Assembly (NCBI RefSeq): GCF_038630985.1
Contig: NZ_CP152049.1
Coordinates: forward strand, 1,438,501 to 1,502,500
DNA: 64,000 nucleotides
Reading direction: 5' to 3'
Source of the DNA: Paenibacillus sp. FSL H8-0548
Lineage (GTDB): Bacteria > Bacillota > Bacilli > Paenibacillales > Paenibacillaceae
The notes under the pieces were generated by a model, which made no database searches, was not told where the DNA came from, and saw only the letters and a list, made by a program, of their open reading frames with translations. Positions 13,887-19,562 of this stretch are shown piece by piece (positions within the stretch are counted from its first letter, which is position 1; every line of letters begins with the position of its first letter). A program made the position numbers and the translations under genes.

Positions 13887-14729
13887 TTGATTGAAATTCG
13901 CTTATCGATAGGCTATGACGAGTATGAAGAAGGCGCAAGGATGTCCAATCTTATTGAAAAATTGGCATCGGGCCCGGATAGCCAGCAGCTTTCCATACTG
14001 ACGATTGGGGATTGGGGTCAGGCGTATGAGAATTCTCCGGACAGTTTTTTGGACACCTTGATTAGCCATAAGGATTCCTTTCCGAGCTTAAAGAAACTAT
14101 TCATAGGAGATATGACCTTTGAGGAATGTGAGGTTTCCTGGATTAATCAGACAAACCTTGCCCCGCTGCTTGCCGCTTTTCCTAATCTGCAGTCGTTGTC
14201 GATCAAGGGCAGCCAAGACTTAAGCCTGCAGCCGCTCGTTCATGAGAAGCTGGAGGAGCTGGTTGTGATATGCGGGGGACTTCCGAAGTCTGTGCTGGAG
14301 GAAATAACAAGTGCAAGCCTGCCTGAGCTGAAGCGTCTGGAGCTTTATTTGGGCGTAGAGGACTATGGCTTTGACGGCGGCATCGATGATGTTCTGCCGC
14401 TGCTACAGGGTGATTTATTTCCAAAGCTCAAATACTTGGGTTTGAAGGATAGTGAAATTCAGGACGAAATCGCGATTGCGGCTGCGGCTGCGCCTATATT
14501 GGATCAATTGGATACGCTGGATTTGTCTTACGGTACGCTAACGGATGTGGGTGGAGAGGTATTGCTTGCAAGCGAGCGGGTTAAGAAGCTGAAGCATTTG
14601 AATCTAAGCTATCACTATATGTCTGATGAGCTGCTGCTGCGCTGGAAGCAATCAGGTTTGTCTGTTGATGTGACGGACCAACAAGAATCGGATGAAGAGG
14701 ATTGGCGCTACCCATTCCTGACGGAGTAA
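13887..14729 (+). CDS. STM4015-family leucine-rich repeat protein
   Basis: First gene of a five-gene cassette. It encodes about 280 residues with irregular leucine-rich repeats across most of the length (FPNLQSLSIKGSQ, LPELKRLELYLGVEDYGFDGG, FPKLKYLGLKDSEI, LDQLDTLDLSYGTL, VKKLKHLNLSYHYM). There is no signal peptide or membrane segment, so it is cytoplasmic. The ELYLGVEDYGFDG segment and the gene order match the Salmonella STM4015 family. The frame is open from 13863, but GGAGGG sits 6 nt before TTG 13887, which is the better start. LRR folds bind proteins or peptides, so it may be a scaffold or substrate-recognition subunit. No biochemical function is known to me. Confidence 0.85.
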   Translation: MIEIRLSIGYDEYEEGARMSNLIEKLASGPDSQQLSILTIGDWGQAYENSPDSFLDTLISHKDSFPSLKKLFIGDMTFEECEVSWINQTNLAPLLAAFPNLQSLSIKGSQDLSLQPLVHEKLEELVVICGGLPKSVLEEITSASLPELKRLELYLGVEDYGFDGGIDDVLPLLQGDLFPKLKYLGLKDSEIQDEIAIAAAAAPILDQLDTLDLSYGTLTDVGGEVLLASERVKKLKHLNLSYHYMSDELLLRWKQSGLSVDVTDQQESDEEDWRYPFLTE

Positions 14730-14745
14730 GGGAGGTTGTTCTCCG

Positions 14746-15957
14746 ATGAATGATTCAGAGCTTCCTTTTCTACTCATTGGAAATCCGGCTAATAAACGGA
14801 CGCATGGACTGCAGGCAGCAAGAACTAAGCTGGGACTTGCACCGGCTATCGTTCTTCCATATGAGCAGCTCCTTCAGCGAACATTGTACATAGAAGATAT
14901 ACTGCGGAATTTAATAGGCTGCAAAGAGGTTATCATTCGCCTTGACGCGCCAGGTGAGCATCAGGCGGTTGAACGTGAGCTGATCGCTTGGGGTGCGCCG
15001 GATCGAAGCGGTGACGATTTGTTTTGGTCAGCGGGCTCTTTGGCTGAGGATATCTCGATTGCAGCATCGGAGGCACTCAAGCTTCCTATGGAGCACGGGC
15101 GAATCTTCTATCCTGCTCAGTGGTATCGCGGCTACTGCCGGTTTCTTGCCGCGCTGCAGAGGGAGACGAGGGTTTCAGGCATATCCGTTCGCTGGGTGAA
15201 TACGCCTGGAAGCATCGCGAGGATGTTCGACAAGAGAAGCTGCTGGCATCAGCTATCTCGTCACGGACTTCCGATGCCTGCCTTGCCCGCTCCCGTTGGA
15301 TCCATTAAAAATTATGACGACCTTCAAGCTGCCATTAGCGCAAGCAGCATGAAGCGTCTATTTATTAAGCTTGCCTGCGGCTCGGGAGCCGCGGGTGTTA
15401 TCGCTTACCAGCTCAATCCGCGCACGGGTGAGGAGCTTGCGATTACGACGATTGGCATGGAGGAGCGTGAAGGCGGCTGCTCCTTCTACAACGCGGGACT
15501 GCTTCGTCGTTATCGAGAGCGGTCCTCTATTCGGCGAATTATTGATTGGGTTTGCAGGGAAGGAGCGCATATTGAGCGATGGATCGAGAAGGAAAGCTTC
15601 GAGAGCAAGTCGTTCGACGTGCGGCAGCTAGTCGTGAACGGCAGGGCCTGCCATACGGTGCTGCGTTTGAGCCGCACGCCCATTACGAACCTGCATCTGC
15701 GCAATGAGCGGCGAATGGATATTGACCAGCTTCTATCCACAGAGGTGGAGCAAGCGGTGAAACTTACAGCGGAAGCGGCGCTTCGTGCTTTTCCAGGGAG
15801 CTCAACGGCTGGGGTGGACGTGCTCGTTAAACGGGGAAGCGGCATGACCTACGCGATCGACATCAATCCTTTCGGCGATTTGCTGTACGGCGCTGAGTAC
15901 GAGGGGATGAACACCTATGAATGGCAGATGCATCAGCTTCTCAGAAAGGAATCGTAG
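14746..15957 (+). CDS. STM4014-family ATP-grasp protein
   Basis: 403 residues, soluble. The second half has the outline of an ATP-grasp ligase: a substrate/ATP entry region (FDKRSCWHQLSRHGLPMPA), a Gly-rich nucleotide loop (FIKLACGSGAAGVIAY, residues about 205-220), and a metal-binding end (AGVDVLVKRG, then AIDINPFGDLLYG, about 355-385) with the D-x-N motif. Family chemistry is ATP-driven joining of a carboxylate to an amine or thiol. GGGAGG precedes the ATG; the next gene starts 3 nt after its stop, so co-translation is likely. The assignment comes from its fold plus position in the STM401x order. The substrate is unknown. Confidence 0.85.
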   Translation: MNDSELPFLLIGNPANKRTHGLQAARTKLGLAPAIVLPYEQLLQRTLYIEDILRNLIGCKEVIIRLDAPGEHQAVERELIAWGAPDRSGDDLFWSAGSLAEDISIAASEALKLPMEHGRIFYPAQWYRGYCRFLAALQRETRVSGISVRWVNTPGSIARMFDKRSCWHQLSRHGLPMPALPAPVGSIKNYDDLQAAISASSMKRLFIKLACGSGAAGVIAYQLNPRTGEELAITTIGMEEREGGCSFYNAGLLRRYRERSSIRRIIDWVCREGAHIERWIEKESFESKSFDVRQLVVNGRACHTVLRLSRTPITNLHLRNERRMDIDQLLSTEVEQAVKLTAEAALRAFPGSSTAGVDVLVKRGSGMTYAIDINPFGDLLYGAEYEGMNTYEWQMHQLLRKES

Positions 15958-15960
15958 CAT

Positions 15961-16746
15961 ATGCTGGATATGAACCAAATTGTGGGCACCCACGATATAT
16001 TGATGATTACGCTCGACACGCTGCGCTATGATGTGGCGAAGCTCGAGGAAGCAAATTGTCCGAACCTGTGCGGGGATGGAGGATGGGAGAAGCGGCATAC
16101 GCCGGGCAGCTTTACCTATGCGGCCCATCACGCGTTTTTTGGTGGTTTTCTGCCTACACCCGCGAATACAGACAAGTCAACGCATGTGAGGTTATTCCAC
16201 ACGAAAAATACGGGGCTCAAAACGCACCCGCATACATGGTTATTTGACGCTCCGGATCTCATATCCGGCTTGCAGGAGGCGGGGTACCGGACGATCTGCA
16301 TCGGAGGCGTCATTTTTTTTACGAAAAAAAACAAGCTGGCCAAGGTGCTCCCGAGTTATTTTGGAGAGAGCTATTGGCGGATGATCTTTGGCGTAACCAA
16401 TCCTCGCTCGACCGAGCATCAGGTGAATCATACGCTGAAGCTGCTGGAGAAGGCTGATCCGTCTGAGAGGCTGTTTTTATTTCTAAATATATCGGCAATG
16501 CACGGCCCTAATCACTATTATGTAGAGGGTGCGAAGCGGGACTCTATAGAGACGCAGCGTGCGGCGCTGCGCTATGTTGACAGCCAGTTAGGCGTTTTAT
16601 TTGAAGCGATGCGTAAAAGAGGGAAAACATTATGCCTCGCTTTTTCCGATCATGGGACCGCTTATGGCGAGGATGGTTATGAAGGACATCGCTTGGCGCA
16701 TGAGGTCGTCTGGAATGTTCCGTATCGCGAATTTTTATTGGATTAA
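15961..16746 (+). CDS. STM4013-family hydrolase, alkaline phosphatase superfamily
   Basis: 261 residues, no signal peptide. The N-terminus has ILMITLDTLRYDVA (residues 13-26), matching the metal-binding start of alkaline phosphatase/sulfatase-fold enzymes. Thr20 after the LD is a candidate nucleophile. AFSDHGTAYGEDGYEGHRLA near 228-247 supplies the second Asp-His metal site and a following His. The sulfatase C/S-x-P-x-R formylglycine motif is absent, so phospho- or phosphonate-ester cleavage is more likely than sulfate cleavage. It is shorter than secreted members and apparently cytoplasmic. It is translationally packed with its neighbours (3 nt upstream, 14 nt downstream). Confidence 0.85.
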   Translation: MLDMNQIVGTHDILMITLDTLRYDVAKLEEANCPNLCGDGGWEKRHTPGSFTYAAHHAFFGGFLPTPANTDKSTHVRLFHTKNTGLKTHPHTWLFDAPDLISGLQEAGYRTICIGGVIFFTKKNKLAKVLPSYFGESYWRMIFGVTNPRSTEHQVNHTLKLLEKADPSERLFLFLNISAMHGPNHYYVEGAKRDSIETQRAALRYVDSQLGVLFEAMRKRGKTLCLAFSDHGTAYGEDGYEGHRLAHEVVWNVPYREFLLD

Positions 16747-16760
16747 GGAGGGGAAACATC

Positions 16761-18119
16761 TTGGATCATCCATCATCGCTACAAACTTCTCCCGAGCTGC
16801 GGGAGCTGGAGCAGCGCTGGACGCGTGCTCCATACCGTTCATATTTGTATTCTTACCCGCATAAGACTGCTTATCGCGATCTGCAGCCTGCAGTGTCGCT
16901 TAAGGAGCTATGGGAGCAGGACCAGACTGATTATCATTTTTTGTATATGCATATTCCTTTTTGCGGAGCCCGCTGCGGCTTCTGCAACTTGTTTACGCTG
17001 CCGGATCGTCGTTTGGACGTTCACGAGCAGTATGTTGATGCGCTTGGGCGTCAGGCGGAGCAATGGGCGCCGTGGTTTCAAAACCGAACCTTCTCCAGAT
17101 TTGCGATTGGCGGAGGAACGCCTACACTGCTGGAAGCGGGACAGCTGAACCGATTGTTCGATATTGCCGAGCTCACGATGGGACTTGATCCGAGTGCAGC
17201 ATCCATATCGGTTGAAACCTCGCCTGAGACGGTAACGGCGGATCGAATGAAAGTGCTGAAGGATCGGCTCGTTGACCGTGTCAGCATGGGCATTCAAAGC
17301 TTCGTAGAAGAGGAAGCGGCAGCCATTTATCGTCCACAGAAGCCGCGGCTTGCCGAGGATGCGCTCGAGATGCTTATGGGTTATGCTTTTCCGCTCGTTA
17401 ACTTGGATCTTATTTATGGCTTGCCAGGTCAAACCGCGGCTACATGGCTGTATTCACTAGAGAAGGCGATTAGCTACGGGCCGGGGGAAATTTTTATTTA
17501 CCCGCTCTACACACGTGAGAATACGATCCTAAAGCCGGAGCAAATACGAAACGCAGGGACGGATATTCGTTTGGAGCTGTATCATATCGCTCGTCAACGG
17601 CTGGAGGAAGCGGGCTATAAGCAGTTTTCGATGCGGCGCTTTGCTAAGGATACGACTTTTACTCACAAAAGCATATTGCCCTTTAGCTGTCAGGAGGAAG
17701 GGATGGCTGGACTTGGCTGCGGAGCAAGGTCCTATACGCGCGAGGTTCATTATGCCTCCAAATATGGCGTGAGCGCAGCGGCAACACGGAGTATTATTGA
17801 GAATTATGTCGCTTCCGAGCGCTATGATATGGCCGATTATGGTTTTAGACTAAACGAGGCGGAGCAGAAGCGCAGATTTATTCTGAAAGCCCTTCTGCAC
17901 CGAGAAGGGCTTGAGCTTGCTGCTTATGAGGGGCGCTTCGGACATGATGCTTTGGTTGAGCATTCTGATCTAGAGGAGCTGCTGAGCACACGGCTGGCAG
18001 AGCTTGAATCAGGCGTAATGCGGCTGACCACGCTCGGAATGGCGTATTCGGATGCGATCGGGGACGAGTTTATTTCAGGAGCTGTGAGAGAGCTGATGGA
18101 CAGCTGTGTGATCCGATGA
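16761..18119 (+). CDS. STM4012-family radical SAM protein (HemN/HemW-like)
   Basis: 452 residues. The radical SAM cluster motif is C-x3-C-x2-C at Cys68, Cys72 and Cys75 (PFCGARCGFCN), followed by SAM-binding GGGTP at 117-121. The overall layout, including MGIQSF and LDLIYGLPGQ and a C-terminal helical domain, resembles coproporphyrinogen III dehydrogenase/HemW. Position in the cassette and divergence argue against a haem role. The start is TTG 16761 behind GGAGGGG. The stop overlaps the next gene by ATGA. It should generate a 5'-deoxyadenosyl radical or use SAM for methylation or rearrangement. The substrate is unknown. Confidence 0.88.
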   Translation: MDHPSSLQTSPELRELEQRWTRAPYRSYLYSYPHKTAYRDLQPAVSLKELWEQDQTDYHFLYMHIPFCGARCGFCNLFTLPDRRLDVHEQYVDALGRQAEQWAPWFQNRTFSRFAIGGGTPTLLEAGQLNRLFDIAELTMGLDPSAASISVETSPETVTADRMKVLKDRLVDRVSMGIQSFVEEEAAAIYRPQKPRLAEDALEMLMGYAFPLVNLDLIYGLPGQTAATWLYSLEKAISYGPGEIFIYPLYTRENTILKPEQIRNAGTDIRLELYHIARQRLEEAGYKQFSMRRFAKDTTFTHKSILPFSCQEEGMAGLGCGARSYTREVHYASKYGVSAAATRSIIENYVASERYDMADYGFRLNEAEQKRRFILKALLHREGLELAAYEGRFGHDALVEHSDLEELLSTRLAELESGVMRLTTLGMAYSDAIGDEFISGAVRELMDSCVIR

Positions 18120-18979
18120 AGGCGACACTGTATTACCGCGGCGCGCTGTCATCCTGCAACTATGACTGTCCGTATTGTCCCTTTAGCAAAACGACGGACA
18201 GCAAAGAGACGCTTGCCAAGGATAAGCAGCAGCTCGCGGATTTTATGAGCTGGGTGCGAGAGCAGCAGGGGGCAGGCCATGAGCTTTCTATTTTCTTTAA
18301 TCCGTACGGGGAGGCGCTTGTCCATAGTTGGTATCGAGAAGCTATGACGGAGCTGTCTCACATGCCTCATGTTGCGAAGGTAGCGATACAGACGAACCTG
18401 TCAGTTAAGTTGGATTGGACGGAGCAGCTTGCAAGAGGCAAGGCCGCCTTCTGGGTTACGTATCATCCTGGGCAGACGAAGCAAGCAAACTTTCTTAGCC
18501 AGTGCATGAAGCTATATGAGCAGCGAATTCCGTTTAGTGTTGGCTCGGTTGGTATTCGCAGCGCATTCCCTGCTATAGAAGAGCTGAGGAAGCTGCTTCC
18601 TGAGGATGTCTACCTGTGGGTGAATGCTTTTAAAGATCAGAAGGCGTACTATACGGAGGAAGATATTGCGCATTTATCACGAATAGATCCTCTTTTCCAG
18701 CTTAACATACCTGACTATAACAGCTTTGGCAAGTCATGCGATGCGGGCGCGAATGTGTTTTACATACAGGGGTCGGGAATCGTCAAGCGATGCTACAGTG
18801 ATCGACGGGTGATAGGCCAGCTTTATCGGGACGGCTTGGAGGGCCTCAGTGCCGATCGTCCTTGCGGGATGAAGAAATGCGGCTGTTATATCGGCTATAT
18901 TCACATGCCAGAGCTTAAGCTAGACGAGGTTTATGGCAAAAGCTTGCTGGAGCGAATACCCGCTGGCTTTGCACGCTGA
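18116..18979 (+). CDS. STM4011-family radical SAM protein
   Basis: 287 residues, last gene of the cassette, overlapping the previous gene by 4 nt. The cluster motif CNYDCPYC (Cys14, Cys18, Cys21) is very near the N-terminus. SIFFNPYGEALV occupies the usual SAM-contact strand. The C-terminal third carries further cysteines at about 208, 226, 250, 255 and 257 (CDAG; CYSD; PCGMKKCGC), which suggests a SPASM/twitch-like auxiliary iron-sulfur cluster as found in peptide-modifying radical SAM enzymes. This is inference. A GC-rich palindrome without a T-run (18982-19010) follows. Confidence 0.88.
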   Translation: MKATLYYRGALSSCNYDCPYCPFSKTTDSKETLAKDKQQLADFMSWVREQQGAGHELSIFFNPYGEALVHSWYREAMTELSHMPHVAKVAIQTNLSVKLDWTEQLARGKAAFWVTYHPGQTKQANFLSQCMKLYEQRIPFSVGSVGIRSAFPAIEELRKLLPEDVYLWVNAFKDQKAYYTEEDIAHLSRIDPLFQLNIPDYNSFGKSCDAGANVFYIQGSGIVKRCYSDRRVIGQLYRDGLEGLSADRPCGMKKCGCYIGYIHMPELKLDEVYGKSLLERIPAGFAR

Positions 18980-19048: not shown

Positions 19049-19440
19049 CTCAAAAGCACCTATGTGTTCCTATTCGCACGAAATGACCGTCTCCTGCCAC
19101 AAATTAGAGCTCATAAGCACACATATGCGCTTATCGCCCAAGAAGTCCTACAGTTTCGCCGTGATAAGCACCTATGTGTTCCTATTCGCACGAAATGACC
19201 ATCTCCTGCCACAAATTAGACCTCATAAGCACACATATGCGCTTATCGCCCAAGAAATCTTGCTGTTTCGCCGCGATAAGAACCTATGTGTTCTTATCCG
19301 CACGAAATGACCGTCTCCTGCCACAAATTAGAGCTCATAAGCACACATATGCGCTTATCGTCCAAGAAGTCCTACAGTTTCGCCGTGATAAGCACCTATG
19401 TGTTCTTATCCGCACGAAATGACCGTCTCCTGCCACGATT
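19049..19440. repeat. 112-bp tandem repeat, 3 full and 1 partial copies
   Basis: The same landmark (ATGTGTTC) recurs at 19062, 19174, 19286 and 19398, exactly 112 bp apart, and the sequence between is nearly identical. Each unit has two dyads: one around CTATGTG (perfect in the third copy, GATAAGAAC at 19275-19283 and GTTCTTATC at 19290-19298), and one in ATAAGCACACATATGCGCTTAT. Frames open through it only because the unit carries no frequent stops. Since 112 is not a multiple of three, the frame rotates each unit, so it does not encode a repeat protein. Confidence 0.9.
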
Positions 19441-19562
19441 TTCCTCGCTCTATAGAGGCATCTCGCACATGCTGTTCGCAGTCTACCTCTGACCATGCTT
19501 CAAATCGATTCGTTTGGGGTAAAGTAATATATGGTTTGAATATGGAGAGGAGCGTGCAGCAT

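Follow-up and report, generated by a model that had tools for sequence, protein, structure and literature searches.

A compact cassette of five collinear genes is found in a 64,000-nt stretch of DNA from Paenibacillus sp. FSL H8-0548 (NZ_CP152049.1, positions 1,438,501-1,502,500, assembly GCF_038630985.1; hereafter the window), where it occupies positions 13887-18979 of the + strand. In the order STM4015-STM4014-STM4013-STM4012-STM4011, the genes encode a leucine-rich repeat (LRR) protein, an ATP-grasp ligase, an alkaline-phosphatase-fold enzyme and two radical S-adenosylmethionine (SAM) enzymes. On balance, STM4015 is probably the covalent carrier or substrate of the system, with its last Glu loaded by STM4014 and the tethered group acted on by the radical SAM pair and STM4013. 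The original prediction, made from this DNA alone, took STM4015 for a probable recognition subunit. A carrier or substrate is now preferred because the terminal Glu is invariant and lies exactly at the C-terminus, and because STM4014 is LysX/RimK-like.

In STM4015, an LRR body is followed by an acidic linker with alignment gaps and then by a short Glu-ended tail. Structures were predicted for STM4014 and STM4015, and the AlphaFold2 (AF2) model of the latter has an LRR fold with a mean predicted local distance difference test (pLDDT) score of 94.3; the final ten residues score lowest (73), while the body blocks mostly reach 94-98, with three at 83-88. The terminal Glu is present in all 95 STM4015 open reading frames (ORFs) from the collected loci (52/52 after reduction at 80% identity), in 120/120 homologues listed of 1030 found, and in 7/7 further copies, five of which lie away from the enzyme genes. 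Outside the Paenibacillaceae (11 loci), 17/17 STM4015 proteins end in Glu, while the other four proteins vary in their final residue. In a diverse alignment of 18 sequences, the last Glu is one of 16 invariant columns and stands behind the variable, gapped columns of the linker. Asp and Glu together make up 36% of the last 20 residues of STM4015 versus 9-17% in the other four proteins. Upstream of the Glu, Arg occupies position -7 in 92/95 of the ORFs and Tyr position -6 in 83/95.

Four controls bear on the origin of this tail. The terminal Glu is encoded by GAG in 48 and GAA in 47 of the 95 ORFs and all three stop codons occur, so the constraint acts on the amino acid. A protein of 571 aa (P0126, the one example) carries two tandem STM4015 units, and the acidic Glu tail is found on the second only, the inner unit having none. 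All five STM4015 copies whose examined flanks are free of the other four families retain both tail and Glu. These comprise one copy in S. cadmiisoli, about 24 kb from the cassette on the same plasmid (L116), three in Embleya (one in L119, a pair in L120) at distances of about 140 and 290 kb from an STM4013 gene on the same plasmid, and one in Calothrix (L115). The nearest solved structure is 2ra8 (Q64V53_BACFR, Bacteroides fragilis; 39% identity, TM 0.90 by query length), in which the STM4015 family match ends in Glu and is followed in the deposited chain by eight further residues, presumably a tag. Taken together, the codon, tandem-fusion, solitary-copy and 2ra8 controls lead to the view that selection seems to act on the tail as a free C-terminus with Glu as its last residue. 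A ribosome-binding site as the cause of the tail is ruled out by the mixed Glu codons, the mixed stops and the solitary copies.

The candidate enzyme for this Glu is STM4014. A profile search of the PDB returns LysX as the best match (1uc8/1uc9 and 3vpd, E 4e-4 to 6e-4), with RimK at E 8e-4 and 9e-4. In Foldseek, ranks 1-6 are held by ArgX:LysW, LysX/ArgX:LysW and LysX chains, RimK comes next, and the graspetide ligase PsnB is also among the matches. Profile and structural comparison with the predicted model thus both suggest that the nearest relatives of STM4014 are LysX/ArgX and RimK, which are ligases acting on a protein C-terminal Glu.

The cassette is one functional unit, because its members are co-inherited beyond chance, in fixed order and with short gene-to-gene distances. 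In 98 genomes of the window's family, searched with profiles for STM4013, STM4015, STM4014 and STM4011 (STM4012 was left out), the four families are above cut-off in the identical 32 genomes. Order, strand and a single contig are shared in 31 of these, and the remaining genome (G376) has an STM4011 piece on another contig. Any match at E <= 0.001 is found in 54/98 genomes for STM4013 and 73/98 for STM4014; the additional matches are weak, fall below cut-off and were left out of the counts. STM4013 is above cut-off in 6/299 Bacillota genomes. Among loci found through STM4013 alone, the 80 best-scoring of 588 confirmed ones were compared (77 Paenibacillus-like; L084, L087 and L088 are not). STM4015, STM4014 and STM4012 accompany it in 80/80 and STM4011 in 79/80, the missing case being L082, whose contig ends there. 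One copy each of the five genes in fixed order is seen in 82/91 loci, with nine exceptions, and the median gene-to-gene distances in the 82 collinear loci are 2.5, -4, 53 and -4. The co-occurrence and gene order that the original prediction proposed to score therefore hold up, and a general separation of the members, which it named as evidence to the contrary, was not found in the one family tested.

The same gene order recurs in plasmid records of Salmonella, Methylobacterium, Deinococcus, Streptomyces, Nonomuraea and Embleya, STM4015 being duplicated in some of them. In Myxococcus (L088) STM4014 and STM4015 lie on the opposite strand. The cassette spans Bacillota, Pseudomonadota, Actinomycetota, Deinococcota and Myxococcota; a metagenomic contig in a viral collection (L089) carries all five genes in this order, and STM4013 is found in three INPHARED records. 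Solitary copies of STM4013 and STM4015 occur in some actinobacterial and cyanobacterial records. Its presence in several phyla and on several plasmids makes transfer of the cassette as a unit plausible.

A substrate or partner outside the five proteins was also sought. Clustering of the flanking ORFs reveals no sixth core gene, the biggest family being present in 19/89 loci. Short ORFs (20-80 aa) were clustered for a shared precursor, as the original prediction had recommended, and among the 3168 found near the cassette the biggest families again reach 19/89 loci, although divergent peptides may escape BLAST. The largest of these families appear to sit in flanking genes (not individually checked). 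The hypothesis of a separate precursor peptide, of the kind used for ribosomally synthesised and post-translationally modified peptides (RiPPs), was rejected on this count. With neither a short ORF family nor a sixth gene, the most economical assumption is that a cassette protein itself serves as substrate, and STM4015 is the simplest candidate. No PADLOC model fits a role in defence, the weak matches being PDC-M51A for STM4012 and pVip for STM4011.

In STM4011, the CxxxCxxC motif and five more cysteines are invariant (16/16 sequences), including C208-x12-G221-x4-C226. The SPASM motif consists of a first half, CX9-15GX4C, and a second half, CX2CX5CX3C; STM4011 fits the first, but has C250-x4-C255-x-C257 in place of the second. 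Its best PDB profile match is the peptide maturase SkfB (E 6e-4), followed by BtrN, and it falls below the prokaryotic viperin cut-off (15.8/180 bits). STM4012 has PDB profile matches to HemN and NocN at E <= 1e-10 and invariant C68, C72 and C75 (14/14), and is under every HemN, HemW, HemZ and HutW cut-off (HemN 139.3/324.95 bits, HemW 151.3/205.4 bits). In STM4013, residues D19, T52, H181, D230, H231, H243 and H247 are invariant (14/14). Judged from motif spacing, Thr52 would occupy the nucleophile place of the alkaline-phosphatase superfamily. The formylglycine motif of sulfatases, Cys/Ser-x-Pro-x-Arg, was not found in STM4013, where the stretch Thr52-Tyr-Ala-Ala-His56 stands at the expected place (T52 and H56 invariant, 14/14). 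PDB profile matches of this protein, with weak E-values, include sulfatases, nucleotide pyrophosphatases and phosphoethanolamine transferases. For STM4013, activity on phosphoesters or in phosphotransfer seems likelier than that of a sulfatase.

In the proposed mechanism, the LRR body of STM4015 would be the part recognised by the enzymes and would present the Glu-ended tail beyond the acidic linker. STM4014 would activate a carboxylate of the last Glu (the gamma one, following the LysW precedent, or the alpha one, following RimK) and join an amino compound to it. STM4011, which is SPASM/twitch-like, and STM4012 would act on the tethered group, on the adjoining Arg-Tyr residues, or on both; the HemN-like STM4012 could form a C-C bond or methylate, like its relative NocN. 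STM4013 would remove or transfer a phosphate-type group, or else finish or release the product. The original prediction envisaged a pathway to a peptide or nucleotide-like product. Its peptide side, in the form of peptide or protein modification, gains support here; the five genes give none to a nucleotide-like product.

A number of observations weigh against STM4015 as a carrier loaded by STM4014. The five genes include neither a peptidase nor a transporter. A single-sequence search with STM4014 gives no match, and its sequence likeness to LysX and RimK is weak. The inositol kinase Vip1 ranks fourth in the profile search, between LysX and RimK; Foldseek identities are 11-16%, and the structural Z scores are a near tie (ArgX 22.8, RimK 22.3, LysX 22.1/22.0, PurK 21.3, the D-cycloserine synthetase DcsG 21.1). 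The window's STM4014 lacks the GSWGR motif reported for ArgX/LysX ligases (PMC10433800). The majority of the 95 and of the 120 STM4015 sequences are close Paenibacillus relatives, and Arg-Tyr-Pro is common in the tail, not universal, the Salmonella protein ending in NAMYTE and that of Methylobacterium in SIAVSE. The fixed Glu could also be a docking signal instead.

As such a signal, the tail would be a short binding motif, comparable to a PDZ ligand, that tethers STM4015 to the enzymes or to a target, with STM4015 as the recognition subunit and the substrate elsewhere. Short free C-termini do serve as docking motifs in other systems, an LRR body is a usual binding fold, and STM4015 copies away from the enzymes retain the tail. 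Docking leaves unexplained, however, why the ligase is nearest to enzymes for a protein C-terminal Glu, and the clustering of flanking ORFs gave no conserved extra partner gene; it is regarded as rather improbable. Somewhat better placed, though still unlikely, is a maturation similar to that of RiPPs, in which Tyr, Arg, Thr and Glu of the tail form a modified core on which the radical SAM enzymes carry out cross-linking or oxidation, STM4014 makes an intramolecular bond or adds one amino acid, and either the whole modified protein or a peptide cleaved out of it is the product or cofactor. The similarity of STM4011 to SPASM/twitch peptide maturases, the relation of STM4012 to the RiPP enzyme NocN, the PsnB match of STM4014 and the conservation of Arg and Tyr upstream of the last residue all speak for this explanation. 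It is opposed by the constancy of Glu alone, with Tyr and Pro replaced in several phyla, by five genes that contain no protease or exporter and by the failure to find a separate precursor. The alignment of STM4012 with HemN, the phosphoesterase-like conserved residues of STM4013 and a solitary STM4013 gene in S. albidoflavus that adjoins thymidylate-kinase-like and NUDIX genes would suit a tail-independent small-molecule pathway, such as tetrapyrrole chemistry via STM4012 or phosphoester metabolism via STM4013. As STM4012 is under the HemN, HemW, HemZ and HutW cut-offs and the constant STM4015 end would go unexplained, very little probability is given to this pathway.

The features of the cassette are collected in Table 1. 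The compact run described in the original prediction was confirmed on the window in coordinates, strand and spacing (16, 3 and 14 nt between the genes, then a 4-nt overlap), as were the family names and the Salmonella gene order. All five proteins exceed the curated cut-offs of NCBIfam models that bear the names of the Salmonella loci. Pfam contributes little more: STM4015 matches LRR, STM4013 matches Sulfatase and STM4012 matches Radical_SAM plus a weak HemN_C, whereas the ATP-grasp match of STM4014 and the Radical_SAM match of STM4011 stay sub-threshold.

Table 1. Positions of the cassette genes and of their proposed functional sites in the window
Feature	Position	Strand	Basis
STM4015 family LRR protein, proposed carrier/substrate, 280 aa, TTG start	13887..14729	+	NF038076, 355.5 bits (cut-off 275); AF2 LRR fold
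STM4015 acidic linker preceding the tail	14673..14705	+	Gapped D/E-rich columns in diverse alignment
STM4015 tail, Arg-Tyr-Pro-Phe-Leu-Thr-Glu	14706..14726	+	Terminal Glu constant across homologues
Proposed ligation site, Glu codon of STM4015	14724-14726	+	Terminal Glu constant, codons mixed
STM4014 family ATP-grasp ligase, LysX/RimK-like	14746..15957	+	NF038074, 405.5 bits (cut-off 175); PDB profile and Foldseek
STM4013 family alkaline-phosphatase-fold enzyme	15961..16746	+	NF038075, 402.8 bits (cut-off 250); invariant residues
STM4013 probable nucleophile, Thr52	16114-16116	+	Motif spacing
STM4012 family HemN-like radical SAM enzyme, TTG start	16761..18119	+	NF006067, 572.9 bits (cut-off 380); PDB relatives HemN, NocN
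STM4012 CxxxCxxC	16962-16985	+	C68, C72, C75 invariant 14/14
STM4011 family radical SAM enzyme	18116..18979	+	NF038073, 400.2 bits (cut-off 200); best PDB profile match SkfB
STM4011 CxxxCxxC	18155-18178	+	Eight cysteines (with the next row) invariant 16/16
STM4011 further invariant cysteines	18737-18886		Eight cysteines (with the previous row) invariant 16/16

Directly downstream of the cassette, window positions 19054-19441 hold three overlapping, near-identical repeat copies with 112-nt spacing and 93-95% identity. In other records, STM4015 relatives with an N-terminal WGR domain are encoded in Myxococcus (L088 8114-10853), where a TIGR02996 domain is also present, and in Bacteroides (L118 6758-7831). 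The latter belongs to a degenerate cassette of Bacteroides finegoldii (L118 6758-10775) with STM4015, STM4014 and STM4011 present, STM4013 truncated and STM4012 not found. Cassette-less STM4013 family proteins occur in S. albidoflavus and Kitasatospora (L107 7860-11309, L110 9980-10792), in the latter at three places on one plasmid. The S. albidoflavus gene also adjoins a radical SAM gene with a weak MoaA-type C-terminal match and is close to lasso-peptide B2 genes. Agrobacterium plasmids carry a distant STM4013-like gene (L112 6001-6864, 109.9 bits versus a cut-off of 250), and the other cassette genes are absent from the one stretch examined. In a Salmonella plasmid record (L104 7207-15525), the cassette lies between ompL and a haloacid dehalogenase (HAD)-hydrolase gene followed by typA, and it adjoins sulfoquinovose genes; no near DNA match to the Salmonella cassette was found among 20,395 E. 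coli records.

A DUF6745 gene adjoins the cassette in six records from Deinococcus, Actinomycetota and Methylobacterium, with neighbourhoods at L105 13012-14309, L106 5168-6632, L108 6504-7829, L109 12885-14368, L114 13043-14352 and L117 2725-4347. It is accompanied by a small gene (about 98-110 aa) that, where read, contains GHSH/GHAH and HEEH stretches (the one in L117 was left out of the comparison). The DUF6745 C-terminus is fixed: among the matches listed, Glu stands at -2 in 115/120, and positions -7 and -5 are Tyr and Pro, respectively, in 119/120. DUF6745 as a universal partner was rejected, as it is found in 0/59 genomes of the window's family; the control search was matchless too, so absence is not proven.

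In agreement with the original prediction, which knew of no established function, no functional report on the STM4011-STM4015 loci was found in the open-licence literature (proposals may exist elsewhere), the available portions of which name the loci in table rows only. No precedent for an LRR carrier or for a link between LysW and radical SAM enzymes was found in that literature, nor was a paper naming 2ra8, a solved STM4015 relative that was deposited as uncharacterised. As far as its available text goes, PMC4431377 deals with a different ATP-grasp clade, with no occurrence of 'leucine' or 'LRR', and the accessible part of PMC8939145 has graspetides as its subject. The cassette thus has curated family names, no function found and a spread across five phyla, and the constant C-terminal Glu suggests the protein, and not the pool of free metabolites, as the place to look for a product. 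If true, this would add a carrier type and a radical-SAM chemistry to scaffold-assisted biosynthesis and would provide a role for 2ra8.

A broader proposal joins these observations and is more tentative, being possible at somewhat less than an even chance. STM4015 proteins would be exchangeable carriers of a new class, with an LRR or in some cases a WGR-LRR architecture. A single radical-SAM enzyme set would load a group onto their C-terminal Glu and tailor it there, and some genomes would have extra, distant carriers with the same tail. DUF6745 proteins, which end in Tyr-x-Pro-h-x-Glu-Thr/Ala (h usually hydrophobic), may form a second such class in certain phyla. Beside amino-group carrier proteins (AmCPs) and pearlins, this would be a third scaffold-assisted biosynthetic logic, found in Salmonella, Streptomyces, Paenibacillus, Deinococcus and Myxococcus.

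Scaffold-tethered biosynthesis is already known from AmCPs and pearlins, and the STM4015 cassette is, by analogy, most likely to be likened to an amino-group-carrier system without being the LysW system. The LysW/LysX (ArgW/ArgX) AmCPs, which serve lysine, arginine and (2S,6R)-diamino-(5R,7)-dihydroxyheptanoic acid (DADH), are carriers with a last Glu and negative charge near the tail, like STM4015, and their LysX/RimK-type ATP-grasp ligase is the nearest relative of STM4014 by profile and Foldseek, in a near tie with RimK, PurK and DcsG by Z. Unlike the zinc-binding LysW, STM4015 belongs to the LRR proteins, is about 280 residues long and ends in RYPFLTE and not in EDWGE, and its proposed ligase in the window lacks GSWGR. 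Where the LysW route has a kinase, a reductase, an aminotransferase and a peptidase, the cassette has two radical SAM enzymes and one enzyme of alkaline-phosphatase fold. In the LysW systems, LysX attaches an amino group to LysW at the gamma-carboxyl of its C-terminal Glu, and an ArgW E54A mutant is an arginine auxotroph (PMC10433800); AmCP enzymes are described as reading the negative charge on the carrier in the accessible part of PMC9303977. In pearlin pathways, chemistry is built at the C-terminus of a gene-encoded carrier, and one of them involves a radical SAM enzyme (PMC9303977). Peptide aminoacyl-tRNA ligases (PEARLs) rely on aminoacyl-tRNA and carrier peptides. The use of a carrier C-terminus as the chemistry site would be common to pearlins and STM4015, but the five cassette proteins match no PEARL-type family. 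From RimK, the ribosomal protein S6 glutamate ligase, STM4014 differs in scoring far below the rimK family cut-off (17.7, cut-off 143.4) and in being paired with a dedicated partner. STM4012 aligns with HemN and NocN but forms its own family, NF006067. STM4011 resembles SPASM/twitch maturases such as SkfB in its CxxxCxxC, C-x12-G-x4-C and further invariant cysteines, and differs from them in the C-x4-C-x-C of its second half and in having no short precursor peptide found beside it.

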